48,379 nt of DNA from Parafrankia discariae (GTDB lineage Bacteria > Actinomycetota > Actinomycetes > Frankiales > Frankiaceae). The notes under the pieces were generated by a model. It made no database searches and had not been told where the DNA came from. It worked only from the letters and a program-made list of their open reading frames with translations. Position 1 is the first letter of the stretch, and each line of letters starts with the position of its first letter. Below are positions 8,336-48,379 of this stretch, one piece after another. Where the stretch lies: contig NZ_KB891231.1 of the NCBI RefSeq assembly GCF_000373365.1, forward strand, positions 1 to 48,379, in the 5' to 3' direction. Made by a program: the position numbers and the translations under genes.

Positions 8336-8436
8336 CAGACGGGTCCGCGCTGCCCGTGGGGACGGGGCCTCGACCGCGGCTTCGGGACGTCCACCTCGTA
8401 CAGCGGATCCAGCTTCACGGCAGCCTCGTTTGTCAT
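8335..8436 (-). CDS. Possible 33-residue peptide overlapping the iclR start
   Basis: ATG 8436 opens a frame MTNEAAVKLDPLYEVDVPKP and onward that stops with TGA overlapping the iclR ATG as TGATG, the arrangement of translationally coupled genes. There is no clear Shine-Dalgarno sequence. It may be a leader peptide, the end of another lost gene, or chance. No family recognised. Confidence 0.25.
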   Translation of the reverse strand: MTNEAAVKLDPLYEVDVPKPRSRPRPHGQRGPV

Positions 8437-44106: not shown

Positions 44107-44179
44107 GCGCTCGTAGCTCAACGGATAGAGCACTTGACTACGGATCAAGAGGTTGGGGGTTCGAGTCCCTCCGAGCGCA
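44107..44179 (+). tRNA. tRNA-Arg(ACG)
   Basis: A full cloverleaf can be drawn. Acceptor stem 44107-44113 pairs with 44172-44178, discriminator A at 44179. D-stem is GCTC/GAGC. The anticodon stem CTTGA/TCAAG encloses CTACGGA with anticodon ACG at 44140-44142. T-stem 44155-44159 pairs with 44167-44171 (one G-U) around TTCGAGT. CCA is not encoded. A rho-independent terminator follows at 44194. The 3' half is the target of the adjacent serine recombinase island. Confidence 0.95.
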
Positions 44180-44180
44180 C
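44133..44180. other. Probable attachment site (att) of the island within tRNA-Arg
   Basis: The recombinase gene ends antisense inside the tRNA (stop at 44145-44147). Everything to the right differs in base and codon use from the left. Integration that rebuilds a tRNA 3' end is the usual outcome for such elements. The core is not resolved because the other att copy lies outside the window. Confidence 0.55.
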
Positions 44181-46055
44181 GTCAAGCATCCCCAACCCGG
44201 CCGGCAGCCCGCCGGCCGGGTTTTTTGTGATGCCCATCGCATCCGACACCCCACCGATGGCCTGCATGTTCCCTTCGTCGAGCTGCACCGCGCATGTGAA
44301 CAGGTGAGCACTGACGTCATAGGTGATCTCAAGCTGACAGACATCGAAAAGCGCGCGTAGGAGTGGATCAGGGGCGCGGGCAAGCTCCCTGCGTCCAATG
44401 GTCCCTAGTTGATCAAGAAGCGCGGCGTCGCGGCCCGTGGACATCGGCGACGTACCTCGCAAGCGAGCAAGATCCTCTTTCTTCTGCTTCCGATCTCTGC
44501 TGATCTCTACTGACCGCCTGTTGACGTCCTTGATCAGGTCCTCGTCTAGGTCGTCGACGGTTTCCAGGGTCCTGATCAATCGAGCTCGTCGTCTGTCCAG
44601 GTCCTCAAGCGATTCCTCAAGATTTGTAATCTTCGCTTTCCAGTTGGATCGCTCGAGATCTTCGCTCTCCCGGACCGCCGCGGAGAGAAGATGGTATCGG
44701 TCTCGACCGAAGACACGGTCGGCGAAGAAGTCGAGGACAGCCTCGATGATCGGCTGCTGCGGTACGTAGATGTTAGCCGGGTGCTGCGGCCACCGGGTGC
44801 GTAGTTCGTCGCTCTCTCTGCCCCTGATACGGCAGCGGAAGTATATGTACTGTCCCTTGCGGATATCCGGCTCCATACGCCGCTGGCAGATCGCGCAACG
44901 TATGTATGAACGCATCAAATATTCGTTGACCGCTGCTGGGTGTCGGTTGACTCTTGGGCCCGACCTAGATCCCTTGCGAACCTTCGCTATTTCCGACGCC
45001 GCACGGTAGGTTTCGAGACTGATGATAGGAACGTGCGTCGGTTTCGGTGACCAGACCCAGAGTTCCGGTGGATTTCTCTTCCCGTTGGCGCTGGCACGGG
45101 CGCGACGGTTCCACACCATGTAGCCGGTGTACTTCGGGTTCTCCAGAATATCCGCGACAGTGCGATGACTCCATGAACCTCTAGAACGCCGTCCACCCAC
45201 CGCGACAGGCGGCGGGTATAGATCATGGTCTTCATCGAGACGATTGGAGATTCTCTGGACCGAAAGACGCTCGGAAGTTCGCCAGAGAAACATCGTCTCG
45301 ATTACGTGTGCTCGTACAGGGTCGATCTGGAGTCGTGTCTTTTTCAGTCCATCCGCGCGTTTAGCTGGCACCGGATGAGGCACAGAATCAGCCAGATAAC
45401 CGTACGGAGGGACGCCGATATTCCAGCCCTGGGTGGCATGTTCGCAAAATCCGTCCCATGCCTTCTCCAGGGTCTCTAGAACATACCATTCGGCGGTTGC
45501 TTGCTTGACACGCCGGGTTAGAATTGCCGTCGCGCGTTTTCGGAGATTACTAATTCCCTCATCGGCAGCGAGGAGCTGGATTCCCATTTTCTCCAGATCG
45601 TGCTCGATCTTTACGCCATAATACGTTCGGCGCGCGACTCGATCGACCGCTTCACAGATGACTCCGTCGAACACCCGGTCGGGCTTTGAAGCCGCGACAA
45701 GGAGATCTTTTATTCCACCGTCACGTGGGATTGGGACGGAGAATTTTTCGTGTATTTTTCGATTTCCCCGGCGGTCTGGATCCAGACGTCCCGATTCTAT
45801 ATCCCAATAGAAGGCGACGATCCTACCACCGGGCGGAAGAACAGCCTGGCAGCTTGCTACCTGTCGGGGCAGCGAGAGCGTCGGGTCCTGCAGGTCCTCA
45901 TCAGAGACACGACCGAGAAACACCAGATCAAGGATTGGCGCGTCCGCTGGCCGCAGACCGTACATTGGTGGGCCCGGCAACCCTCGACGTGGGTCTGGCC
46001 CCAGGATCCACGGGCGCGATGCAGCAACACTCTCGACGTCAGTCGACATAGCCAT
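44145..46055 (-). CDS. Large serine recombinase (site-specific integrase of the island)
   Basis: This is a 636-residue recombinase. The resolvase domain has catalytic Ser51 in FLGRVSDEDLQDPTLSLPRQ, and DRVARR lies near 138-143. The Recombinase domain reads GVPPYGYLADSVPHP, then RTVADILENPKYTGYMVWNR. A zinc-ribbon Cys pair is in YIRCAICQRRMEP with another in YFRCRIR, and a coiled coil covers about 480-540. GC content is visibly lower than in the neighbours, a sign of transfer. The last 25 codons run through the tRNA terminator and into the tRNA itself (LDVRSEGLEPPTS), so the present C-terminus was created by integration. It should catalyse integration and, with a directionality factor, excision. 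Confidence 0.92.
   Translation of the reverse strand: MAMSTDVESVAASRPWILGPDPRRGLPGPPMYGLRPADAPILDLVFLGRVSDEDLQDPTLSLPRQVASCQAVLPPGGRIVAFYWDIESGRLDPDRRGNRKIHEKFSVPIPRDGGIKDLLVAASKPDRVFDGVICEAVDRVARRTYYGVKIEHDLEKMGIQLLAADEGISNLRKRATAILTRRVKQATAEWYVLETLEKAWDGFCEHATQGWNIGVPPYGYLADSVPHPVPAKRADGLKKTRLQIDPVRAHVIETMFLWRTSERLSVQRISNRLDEDHDLYPPPVAVGGRRSRGSWSHRTVADILENPKYTGYMVWNRRARASANGKRNPPELWVWSPKPTHVPIISLETYRAASEIAKVRKGSRSGPRVNRHPAAVNEYLMRSYIRCAICQRRMEPDIRKGQYIYFRCRIRGRESDELRTRWPQHPANIYVPQQPIIEAVLDFFADRVFGRDRYHLLSAAVRESEDLERSNWKAKITNLEESLEDLDRRRARLIRTLETVDDLDEDLIKDVNRRSVEISRDRKQKKEDLARLRGTSPMSTGRDAALLDQLGTIGRRELARAPDPLLRALFDVCQLEITYDVSAHLFTCAVQLDEGNMQAIGGVSDAMGITKNPAGGLPAGLGMLDVRSEGLEPPTS
44194..44226 (+). 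terminator. Rho-independent terminator of tRNA-Arg
   Basis: CCCGGCCGGC (44196-44205) pairs perfectly with GCCGGCCGGG (44211-44220), loop AGCCC, followed by six T (44221-44226). In the other direction it encodes NPAGGLPAGLG of the recombinase. Confidence 0.92.
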
Positions 46056-46268: not shown

Positions 46269-46650
46269 CGTCCCGTTTCCGAAAATCAATGGCCATCAAT
46301 CGTCGACAGCAAAGACCAGCCGCGAAATAGGTCGAGATCTTGGCCAGATTTTTCAAGATGGCGACAGAGGCGCCGAAATTTACTCTTCTTCATCCCAGAA
46401 TCAAGAAATGATCACCGTAGTGTTTAGGTGGAGATATTCCAAACAGGTGGGACGGAGATGCGATGCGGTCCCGTACCAGAGTCAGGAGCAAGCTCCTCGG
46501 GCAGTGCCTCACGGAAGGCTTCGCTGGAGGCGTGGAAGGAGGCGAGAGGGGTCCCGCGCTCGGACGAGCGAGGCCGGGGCGCTGCGGTGCCCGTCCCGCG
46601 CCTCGCTCGCGTCGGCAGGGCGAAGGTGGGTGGTTCTGGGCGTGGGGTGG

Positions 46651-46710
46651 GATCTGACGGTGATCTGACTGTTGTTGCGTGTGCAACTTGTGTCAGATCA
46701 CCGTCAGATC
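46651..46710. repeat. Perfect 19-bp inverted repeat with inner hairpin
   Basis: GATCTGACGGTGATCTGAC (46651-46669) is the exact reverse complement of 46692-46710. Inside the spacer GTTGC (46674-46678) pairs with GCAAC (46683-46687). It can form a long cruciform or transcript hairpin 48 bp downstream of the methyltransferase stop: terminator, replication-associated site, or both. Confidence 0.9.
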
Positions 46711-46729
46711 ACTGTCAGATCACTGTCAG
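46692..46729. repeat. 11-bp iteron-like direct repeats, left cluster
   Basis: GTCAGATCACC, GTCAGATCACT, GTCAGATCACT and a partial GTCAG follow head to tail with an exact 11-bp period, about one helical turn, each with a GATC. Inverted copies lie at 46651-46669. Confidence 0.88.
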
Positions 46730-46757
46730 GTCGTTTTTGTGCAGGTCAGCGCCGGTG

Positions 46758-47636
46758 TCAGGCCTGCGGACGGGCTACGGGCGGGGGCGTCAGGAGAAGG
46801 ATGTCCTCGTGGGCGGTGATGTGGAGGGGGGTGCCGGCGGCATGGGCGGTGCGGGCGTTGTGGAGGGCGAAGAACGTCGTGCGGGGCACGAGCCGGCCCT
46901 CGCGCAGGCCCGCGAGGAGGGCTGCGGCGCGTCCGGCGCGGACGAGGCCGACCGTCTGGGCGCTGTGCAGGATGGCGCCGGGTAGGTCGATGAGTTCACC
47001 GTCCTGGCGGTAGGGGCGCACAGCGATCGCGACGATTCCGCCGGGGCGCAAAAGCGCTGCGGCGCCGGTGAGAATCTCGGTGAATCCGGTGAGGAGGTCG
47101 GTGAGGTCGGCGGCGGCGAGGTTCCCGATCCGGCCGGCCCGGCCGGTGCTGTAGGTGTAGTCGCGTTTGCGGACCCCGTGTACCCGGTCAGCGTCGACGG
47201 TGCCGTGGGTGGCTTTCCCGTACGGGGGTGAGGTGAGAACCAGCGCGGCGTTTCCGCGCGCACTCTCGGGGGCGAGGGCGGGGAGGCGGCGGGAGTCACC
47301 GGTGATGAGCTGGATGGTGCCGATGGCGCCCTGGGCGTGGGCGAGGGCGGCGTTGGCGCGGCCGATGCTGGCCCAGCGGGGTTCGTATTCGATCCCCAGG
47401 GCGTGGCGGCCGAGGTGTGCGGCTTCGACGAGGGTGGTGCCGATGCCGCACATGGGGTCCACGACGAGATCGCCCGGCTCGGTGAACATCGAAATGATGT
47501 GGCGGGCGAGGGCGGGCAGCATGCGGGCGGGGTGCGCAAGGGATTCGGGGGTGTAGCGGTGTAGCCGCTGGAAGCGGGGGTGGGTCTGTGACACCGGCCA
47601 GACGGTGAGCGGAACGGGTGTGTGCCGGTCAGCCAC
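46758..47636 (-). CDS. DNA methyltransferase (N4-cytosine/N6-adenine type)
   Basis: This 292-residue enzyme has SAM motif I DLVVDPMCGIGTTLVEA and catalytic motif IV LVLTSPPYGKATHG. The S/T-PP-Y form is typical of N4-cytosine and some N6-adenine methylases. It continues ARLRPGG-like LLRPGGIVAIAVRPYRQDGE. The opening PVPLTVWPVSQTHPRFQRLH is shared with the gene upstream. GTG 47636 overlaps the stop of that gene by 8 bp, indicating coupling; the frame could start as far as 47741. No partner nuclease is in the window, so it is a solitary methylase of the island, possibly acting at the flanking GATC-rich repeats (speculative). Confidence 0.82.
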   Translation of the reverse strand: MADRHTPVPLTVWPVSQTHPRFQRLHRYTPESLAHPARMLPALARHIISMFTEPGDLVVDPMCGIGTTLVEAAHLGRHALGIEYEPRWASIGRANAALAHAQGAIGTIQLITGDSRRLPALAPESARGNAALVLTSPPYGKATHGTVDADRVHGVRKRDYTYSTGRAGRIGNLAAADLTDLLTGFTEILTGAAALLRPGGIVAIAVRPYRQDGELIDLPGAILHSAQTVGLVRAGRAAALLAGLREGRLVPRTTFFALHNARTAHAAGTPLHITAHEDILLLTPPPVARPQA

Positions 47637-48231
47637 GCGCACCGCCACCGGGCCGGTGGAACACGGCGAGGTCGGTGTGAACGGGCTCCAACAGCCCGAC
47701 ACCCAAGGGGATTTCGGTGTGGGGGTGGAGCTCTCCGTCATCGATAGGGCTGGTGAGGATGATGATGTGTTGGAGGTAGCGCAGGCCGGTGGCGCGGGCG
47801 GCGGTGATGGTGTCCGCGAGCGGGTCGGTCGCCCCGCCGGTGGGGGTGTGGACGGTGAGGAGGTATCCCCCGGGGCGCAGGAGTCCCGCGAGCATGCTCA
47901 GGTCGCAGAGAAGTCTTTCCGGGGTGGTGGCGGGCGGGTGGTCGATGATGAGTCCGGCGTCGCGCTCCTGGCAGTGCGTAATGGCCTTGCCGGTCGGGTT
48001 CTGGGTGCGGTGGAGCGCGGTGTAGCGGCGGTGGAGGTGGTCGGCGGCACCGGTGAGGATTCCGGTGTCGTCGATACCGATCACGAGGTCGCCGCTGTGG
48101 GTGAAGGTGGCGATAGCGCGGGCCGCGGCAAGAGGGGGCAGGGCTCCGGGGATTCCCGGGGTGGTGGTGGGCCAGACGGTGAGCGGAATGATCCGCGGCT
48201 GATCGGTTCGGGTGGGACGGGGCTGAGGCAC
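47629..48231 (-). CDS. Degenerate paralogue of the adjacent methyltransferase
   Basis: This 200-residue protein shows PRIIPLTVWPTTTPGIPGAL, LAAARAIATFTHSGDLVIGI, LIIDHPPATTPERLL and LLRPGGYLLTVHTPTG. Aligned by eye with the next gene, it keeps the PLTVWP opening, the strand before motif I and the LLRPGG strand. Motif I DPMCGIGTT has become GIDDTGILTG and motif IV TSPPY has become DHPPA, so catalysis is unlikely. GTG 48231 has GGAGG at ideal distance; the frame from TTG 48246 is less likely. The two genes overlap and may form a heterodimer in which this one is structural or recognises DNA. Confidence 0.7.
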   Translation of the reverse strand: MPQPRPTRTDQPRIIPLTVWPTTTPGIPGALPPLAAARAIATFTHSGDLVIGIDDTGILTGAADHLHRRYTALHRTQNPTGKAITHCQERDAGLIIDHPPATTPERLLCDLSMLAGLLRPGGYLLTVHTPTGGATDPLADTITAARATGLRYLQHIIILTSPIDDGELHPHTEIPLGVGLLEPVHTDLAVFHRPGGGARG

Positions 48232-48327
48232 TCGGTTCCTCCGCAACAGGATGTCGCCAGTTCACCGCTTGGGATAAGGGGCGCTGGTGTTCGGGTGGCT
48301 GTTCGGGTCCGAGTGAAGTCCAGGGCG

Positions 48328-48366
48328 TCTGACGGTGATCTGACACTGATCTGACTCTGATCATCT
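48328..48366. repeat. 11-bp iteron-like repeats, right cluster upstream of the methyltransferase pair
   Basis: TCTGACGGTGATCTGAC (48328-48344) is identical to 46653-46669. It continues ACTGATCTGAC and TCTGATCATC with the same 11-bp period. It lies about 97 bp upstream of the first methyltransferase start, so it may be both operator and origin-like element. Confidence 0.85.
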
Positions 48367-48379
48367 GCGGGGTTCGCGG

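Follow-up and report, generated by a model that had tools for sequence, protein, structure and literature searches.

The right end of a 48,379-nucleotide stretch of DNA from Parafrankia discariae (contig NZ_KB891231.1 of assembly GCF_000373365.1, referred to here as the window) is, judging from its gene content, the integrase-proximal part of an integrative conjugative element (ICE) of the kind that carries a type IV secretion system (T4SS). In it, two arrays of 11-bp units, which I will call L and R, lie to either side of two genes related to DNA methyltransferases (MT), the METHYLTRANSFERASES pair, consisting of MTa and MTb and found between L and R in the ICE copies. The arrays are very probably functional cis-sites of this element. 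As to what they do, I would give an even chance to the reading in which L is a site of the relaxosome or origin-of-transfer (oriT) type, R is an operator, and the two share a binding protein encoded by the element. Genomes, contigs, and loci are denoted by G, C, and L with a number where they need to be told apart.

The sequence confirms the three features from which an earlier note on this DNA began: an identical 17-mer, arrays with an exact period of 11 bp, and a 19-bp inverted repeat. The 17-mer, TCTGACGGTGATCTGAC, occurs with the same letters at positions 46653-46669 in L and 48328-48344 in R. The L array contains minus-strand units beginning at 46651 and 46662, plus-strand units beginning at 46692, 46703, and 46714, and a degenerate unit, GTCAGGTC, at 46725, and its perfect 19-bp inverted repeat is made up of 46651-46669 and 46692-46710. 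The middle of L is GTTGnnnnnGCAAC, around which the inverted units are placed at a fixed spacing. The array as a single DNA strand has a predicted folding energy of -30.6 kcal/mol, compared to -11.59 (standard deviation 2.1) for 200 shuffled sequences (z -9.05), and in the predicted fold a 4x4 internal loop separates the 19-bp stem from a GTTGC/GCAAC stem. As much of the R array as lies within the window has minus-strand units at 48348 and 48337 and the degenerate GTCAGACG at 48326.

A pattern of two units, allowed up to two mismatches, was found six times in the window, always at L or R; the average over 100 shuffled sequences was 0.00. Over the whole genome the same pattern with up to three mismatches gave 44 matches and the reversed-pattern control gave 2. 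All of the exact matches (17), those with one mismatch (8), and those with two (7) are confined to five contigs (C15, C17, C47, C119, and C130), and matches with three mismatches lie outside those five contigs in 11 of 12 cases. The description of the arrays as helically phased and non-random holds good.

The window is the whole of contig C130, one of 194 in the assembly, and its end is the end of the contig. The ends of C15 and C17 are identical in reverse complement both to this end and to that of C119. The possession by several contigs of the same 103-bp end indicates that the element is present in multiple copies and that the assembly broke inside the right array. The array goes on in C15 and C17 as a larger inverted array, which in C15 has four exact minus-strand units (one of them isolated, near the gene I will call GX), two exact plus-strand units, and further degenerate ones. 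R thus seen fills the divergent gap between MTb and an operon that begins with GX and continues with T4SS genes. The layout of R is that of a bidirectional operator, and cooperative operators were among the possibilities named in the earlier note.

It had also proposed to look for a replication initiator or primase past position 48379. None is seen beside the right array, and the T4SS operon is there instead. In C15, R is followed by GX (no Pfam match), a T4SS pilin (PF18895, 5.4e-15), a TrbL-like protein (PF19597, 0.012, below the cut-off), a PrgI protein (PF12666, 2e-14), and a VirB4-type ATPase (PF19044, 9.4e-16; also NF045971, 1.3e-76 and 258 bits, under that model's cut-off of 325). A coupling-type ATPase in C15 has weak matches (PF10412 at 20.3 bits, where the cut-off is 20.5). 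Close relatives of C15's T4SS-operon genes are found in C17. The idea of a mobile cassette is upheld in the sense that the arrays are part of a T4SS conjugative element.

The window's contig stops before the genes for VirB4 and the coupling protein, which in other genomes are contiguous with the MT pair and an integrase. Gene order was read by tblastn on 21 stretches, as far as the contig or the stretch reaches. In five loci (L056, L058, L060, L061, and L063) a single contig has, in order, integrase, L, MTa, MTb, R, GX, pilin, TrbL, PrgI, and VirB4, with VirD4 as well in all but L060. The integrase is a serine recombinase in the window and L062 and a tyrosine integrase in the other copies. In some copies there lies, between the tyrosine integrase and L, an open reading frame (ORF) for a xis-like helix-turn-helix protein, whose matches to HTH_17 (8e-5 in G030, 0.035 in the C119 copy) are both below the Pfam cut-off. 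L itself is situated in the ICE copies between MTa and the integrase module, upstream of the integrase and xis genes.

Arrays accompany all nine loci that have, among 35 genomes of the family, an MTb at least 48% identical, seven with units of the GTCAGATC type and two of the TTCAGATC type. Among relatives that bear a name, MTb is found in Parafrankia colletiae, Parafrankia soli, Candidatus Frankia californiensis (two loci), and Frankia sp. AgB1.9, and it is from these names that the family is described as relatives of Frankia. Weaker MTb loci were met in Rhizocola hellebori (28%) and in a metagenome-assembled genome, and these were left out of the comparison of L and R; the matches G018:C48, G023:C1, and G023:C36 were left out of the locus comparison.

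The geometry of L is fixed. The innermost units begin 30 bp apart in 12 of the 12 L sites whose two inner sides both carry exact GTCAGATC units. The distance is unchanged in L061, where one inner side is occupied by a degenerate unit, GTCAGATG. The elements of G030 and G033, which belong to another genus, have TTCAG units and yet retain the core. At R, by contrast, the inward-facing units are 29-115 bp apart across loci. The core pattern, TGAnnnnnGTTGnnnnnGCAACnnnnnTCAGAT, searched with at most one mismatch, is found at 13 sites in 8 of 393 genomes of the class, every one in the window's family, and the control gave 0 matches (matches with two mismatches on one strand, in G024, G031, G032, and G033:C88, were counted as chance). 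By context, seven of the 13 sites adjoin MTa, three belong to derivatives lacking T4SS genes, and three, the LANTHIPEPTIDE-linked sites in G003, G023, and G017:C189, are linked to lanthipeptide genes.

In each group the core is better conserved than what adjoins it. With identity calculated in blocks of 40 columns (gaps scored as differences), the core block stands at 0.96 in the ICE copies, compared to 0.62 and 0.51 in the two adjoining blocks, at 1.00 in the derivatives (0.70 and 0.82), and at 0.94 in the lanthipeptide-linked sites (0.76 and 0.73). To the MT side of L there is a further short sequence, CAGGTCAG, visible by eye at eight ICE and derivative sites with GTCAG-type units; it is degenerate in G030 and G033, and it was not seen at the three lanthipeptide-linked sites (also by eye). 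G023 (L068, ~8350-8416) appears by eye to have a second, decayed copy of L about 360 bp from the intact one.

The derivatives (G000:C47, G018:C4, and G019:C169) have no T4SS gene in the 13-15 kb searched but retain a serine recombinase, both arrays, a remnant of GX, and an open frame for a Replic_Relax protein (PF13814). The tail of the GX remnant is TrbL-like in two of them by tblastn; that of C47 appears alike by eye, the tail lying outside the searched stretch. MTb survives in the derivatives only as fragments and MTa, in one derivative, as three short pieces. With MTb decayed and the arrays and relaxase frame retained, the latter two have outlasted MTb. A gene resembling those for isoaspartate methyltransferases was noticed by eye near two of the three.

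Passages of PMC5357655 equate PF13814 with the MobC relaxase superfamily. A Replic_Relax gene is found behind the T4SS genes in L057 and L064, lies approximately 10-13 kb from L in L057, L058, L064, and G019:C237, and at 8 of the 13 core sites is no more than 15 kb away from L; at three others (C119, C130, and G033:C137) the contig ends near L.

I would put these observations together as follows. A single element-encoded protein, binding cooperatively, would read both L and R, the candidates being the relaxase and the sigma-like protein GX (considered below). R would be the operator that sets transcription of the MTb-MTa and GX-T4SS operons, presumably by repression. After excision, the relaxase of the MOB_C family (Replic_Relax) would load at L, with its rigid GTTGnnnnnGCAAC hairpin core, and nick there. 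L might also gate the integrase module. An intergenic inverted repeat with accessory repeats, features expected of an oriT, is present at L.

There are several points that weigh against this proposal. The likeness of L to an oriT is one of layout. The relaxase gene of the window's own copy cannot be linked to it, because the contigs break at the repeats, and there is no Replic_Relax gene on the 18-kb contig of G017:C189, nor in G003 up to a distance of 280 kb from L. In G022 the core is degenerate at two L sites. Blocks near L other than the core reach identities of 0.95 in the derivatives, 0.85 in the lanthipeptide-linked group, and 0.91 in the ICE copies (the last within MTa), all from groups that contain near relatives, so that their counts are not independent, and homology in the lanthipeptide-linked group stops about 80 bp beyond L. 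No array comparable to those at L and R was recognized at 17 loci outside the family that have MTa (a scan at lag 11 covered all 17, and a best-lag scan the gaps of 8). Finally, L lies upstream of integrase and xis in the ICE copies, a position where an ordinary operator would suffice.

The last point leads to an account that I consider a real possibility, though not a probable one: L and R may be transcriptional operators and nothing else (L with a hairpin terminator or insulator in addition), through which a repressor or activator of the ICE, binding both, coordinates excision by way of xis-int, methylation by way of MTb-MTa, and transfer by way of GX-T4SS, with the oriT lying elsewhere. The position of R in a divergent gap and of L just behind MTa and before the integrase genes would be natural on this account, as would a sigma-like protein at the head of the T4SS operon. 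It would not lead one to expect a geometry at L so much more rigid than that at R, nor the retention of L in G003 and G023, where no MT or integrase gene was found right beside it.

A precedent for phased repeats of this sort comes from plasmid R388. Passages of PMC3098194 describe its stbDRs as 9-bp direct repeats with 2-nt spacers (hence an 11-bp period), arranged in two sets of five in the promoter region of stb, close to the transfer origin. Other promoters contain the unit as well, and binding by StbA was tested, the protein binding phased direct repeats in several promoters. The resemblance lies in phased 11-bp direct repeats at several places in a mobile element, and by analogy StbA may serve as a tested precedent for a binder shared by L and R as well as for the account by operators only. 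The sequence of the R388 unit is unrelated, and the arrays considered here differ also in being inverted around a hairpin core and in flanking an MT pair.

Phased repeats around a hairpin are also reminiscent of iterons, and the name of the Replic_Relax family speaks of replication. It might be imagined that L is an origin or partition site, of the iteron or centromere type, used by the excised circle. I find this improbable, since no initiator, primase, or ParA-like family was found among the conserved genes scanned, and the L site of G023 is ~26 kb from a separate RepSA gene, although it is only putative that the two belong to a common element. In the ICE itself, no initiator family was found among the recombinase, MTa, MTb, GX, and T4SS genes, the small ORFs having been scanned in part.

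The earlier note had drawn attention to the GATC in each unit and suggested replication control by methylation. It is very unlikely that a complex of MTa and MTb switches the sites by methylating the arrays, at GATC or at another base. The place of the pair between L and R and the motifs of MTa would fit such a switch. However, GATC is absent from 30 of 127 units selected by GTCAG (units in shared contig ends were entered once per contig, and as GTCAG was required of the 127, its constancy is no finding), and it is absent from 21 of 31 TTCAG matches in two TTCAG-type loci, chance matches included. Furthermore, at 6 of the 13 core sites L has beside it a decayed MT pair or none that was found. 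A GATC methylation switch was therefore rejected as the primary explanation, and the suggested replication control by GATC methylation is not supported.

What the earlier note called a methylase pair proves to be so for one member: MTa has motifs I and IV and the MTb of the window has neither. Profile matches to MTa occur in 28 of the 393 genomes (E up to 1e-30). Motif I of the DPMCGIGT type is present in 27 of 28 proteins and TSPPY in all 28 (three of the frames are interrupted by a single stop), and by its motifs MTa is catalytically complete. MTb matches the MTa profile with a probability of 90.6% (E 1.3e-6, 183 columns). Among 21 proteins in the position of MTb, the pattern [TS][SDN]PP[YFW] was found in none and motif I in two, both from G045. 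By eye, the protein in the MTb position of G045a has VSPPY and those of G256 and G376 have PPPY. MTb looks like a pseudo-methyltransferase partner of the catalytic MTa, with which it may form a complex. Two-subunit methyltransferases with one inactive subunit are known from METTL3/METTL14, in which the catalytic subunit is likewise accompanied by a related one without the S-adenosylmethionine and catalytic motifs. The pair considered here differs in being bacterial and encoded by an ICE. In L165 (G045:C48, 8509-10187) tandem MT genes both seem complete, with motif I in both and with TSPPY and VSPPY, respectively. It is possible that this two-intact state in G045 is ancestral to the pair. MTb and the window-type GX have no match in PHROGs, and the AlphaFold2 model of MTb was too poor to use (pLDDT, predicted local distance difference test, 33.6).

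GX is the first gene of the T4SS operon (L009:7456-8286 and its relatives), and GX of the window type has no family match. An AlphaFold2 model of GX from Parafrankia soli (L111) has pLDDT 77.6 and pTM (predicted template modelling score) 0.74. The best VIA-align result with this model has Z 10.1 over 106 residues (root mean square deviation 3.2), below the level deemed safe for helical folds. RNA polymerase or sigma entries account for 49 of the 50 rows listed, which re-score the matches of Foldseek and are not an independent search; the best E-value from Foldseek, 0.11, is not significant. Comparison with the sequences in PDB gave nothing meaningful. Among 17 relatives of GX, one matches Sigma70_r4_2 (8.7e-5) and three match the sigma70-ECF model TIGR02937 (best 8.5e-5). 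From the model and these matches, GX resembles a highly divergent protein of the sigma-70 family.

A sister lineage (two copies in G012 and one each in G006 and G002) has a related module with a different unit, CTGACAG(T/G)TCG(T/C)TGGCG, which is found at L in 4 of 4 regions, with a spacing of 23 bp, and at R in 3 of 3. A hairpin of 12-17 bp is located near L in all four of its loci, and the hairpin scan was positive in 3 of the 17 loci outside the family. That the layout is the same and the unit different is to be expected if a co-evolving protein of the element reads the unit. Loci with a more distant MTa number 21, including the 17 from outside the family. T4SS genes are visible in 11 of these 21 stretches, and the lag-11 scan found matches only in runs of N. 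The earlier note had staked its view on the repeats being neither random nor absent around homologous methylase pairs, and this stands for the arrays within the family and not for the out-of-family loci.

A Streptomyces plasmid provided the sole plasmid relative of MTa (50% identity), and it carries T4SS genes, MTb, and MTa; a search for plasmid relatives of MTb found none at E 0.01. In a Streptomyces plasmid locus, L147, the best-lag scan turned up a repeat of 22 bp, unrelated to the units considered here, in a stretch of 2.6 kb. As a source of L, plasmids and phages were considered and rejected: blastn of 46640-46760 against both gave no match, and the only exact match of the 17-mer in viral contigs is inside a short predicted frame, with no array there.

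The lanthipeptide-linked sites were examined for context. In G003 (L069, 7270-13795) the distance between L and the end of a gene of the APH family is ~250 bp, and that gene is followed by genes of the LanC and LanB types (according to Pfam), and a similar lanthipeptide cluster is seen by eye on the same side of L in G023 (L068, 1511-8040). The contig of G017:C189 begins within the homologous flank (L070, 1-482), and the cluster itself is not on the contig. At a distance of ~19-22 kb from L, G003 has an FtsK-type gene, a tyrosine integrase, and a tRNA-Arg, and at 14-28 kb G023 has RepSA, an FtsK-type gene, a serine recombinase, and a Replic_Relax gene. These surroundings look like actinomycete ICEs, of which L is a putative part.

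ICEs of this type, MOB_C relaxases, and phased operators are already known kinds. Ghinet et al. (2011, PMC3218068) surveyed the T4SS ICEs of Actinobacteria, considering MOB_F (TrwC) relaxases only. According to passages of that paper, those elements resemble the one described here in their integrase, VirB4/TraC-like ATPase, and VirD4-like coupling protein, and an example from Frankia encodes a lantibiotic dehydratase-like protein. The relaxase candidate here is of the Replic_Relax/MOB_C kind, in contrast to the MOB_F of the survey, and the passages mention neither arrays at such sites nor such an MT pair. Streptococcal elements, in the passages that describe them, resemble the three derivatives in having a serine recombinase and a PF13814 relaxase. 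They encode a VirD4 coupling protein, whereas the searched stretches of the derivatives show neither a coupling protein nor a T4SS gene, and the derivatives retain both arrays. The papers listed from an open-licence library offer, in their titles and the beginnings of their abstracts and in passages of a few, no description of the composite site or of its copies linked to lanthipeptide genes, nor of the MT/pseudo-MT pair or the sigma-like gene at the head of the operon.

A broader proposal may be ventured, tentatively and as something rather unlikely to be right in full. L may be an undescribed transfer origin of MOB_C-type ICEs in relatives of Frankia, copies of which other elements would have picked up, among them islands of the RepSA/FtsK kind that carry lanthipeptide clusters. 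The T4SS of an ICE resident in the same cell could then mobilize such islands in trans, besides their own double-strand route, and the sigma-like protein and the MT/pseudo-MT pair, encoded to either side of R, would act as controllers. Apart from this proposal, L is a candidate transfer origin for the MOB_C-type T4SS ICEs of actinobacteria, and it points to a way in which lanthipeptide clusters might move. The core pattern serves also as a sequence handle, confined among the genomes searched to one family and found in or near mobile elements wherever the context was read. Of interest also are a divergent sigma-like protein that heads a T4SS operon and an MT pair in which one partner has seemingly turned non-catalytic, with a relative in G045 that may have both intact.

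Table 1. Features at the right end of the window. The coordinates given for MTa are those of the longest ORF, whose actual start may be further in.
Feature	Position	Strand	Remarks
tRNA-Arg (acg)	44107..44180	+	overlaps 3' end of recombinase gene; ARAGORN
Large serine recombinase (integrase of window copy)	44145..46055	-	Pfam PF07508, PF00239
L site	46651..46735	.	two minus-strand and three plus-strand 11-bp units, one degenerate; sequence analysis
L core GTTGCGTGTGCAAC	46674..46687	+	innermost flanking units begin 30 bp apart (46662, 46692)
CAGGTCAG	46742..46749	+	MT side of L; by eye
MTa, N6/N4 DNA methyltransferase	46758..47741	-	Pfam PF01555 2.3e-17; motif I DPMCGIGT, motif IV TSPPY
MTb, methyltransferase-derived	47629..48246	-	without motif I or IV; no Pfam match
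Shared contig end	48277..48379	.	103 bp, reverse-complement identical to ends of C15 and C17
R site, left half only	48326..48362	.	three minus-strand 11-bp units (one degenerate), truncated by contig end

Units of the GTCAGATC type were also encountered in a genome without a match to MTa or MTb: three of them, with a period of 11 bp, lie at 6478-6507 of L071 (G001:C1).

With regard to the site of integration, a tRNA gene is near the integrase in the window, in C119 (where a tyrosine integrase and tRNA-Thr are ~1.2 kb apart), and in L059, and is inside the integrase region in L063; L056, L058, and L060 yielded none. The tRNA-Arg of the window, judging from its position, is probably the integration end of the element. 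It overlaps the oppositely oriented serine recombinase gene, which would suit an attachment (att) site in the region of the recombinase's stop codon.

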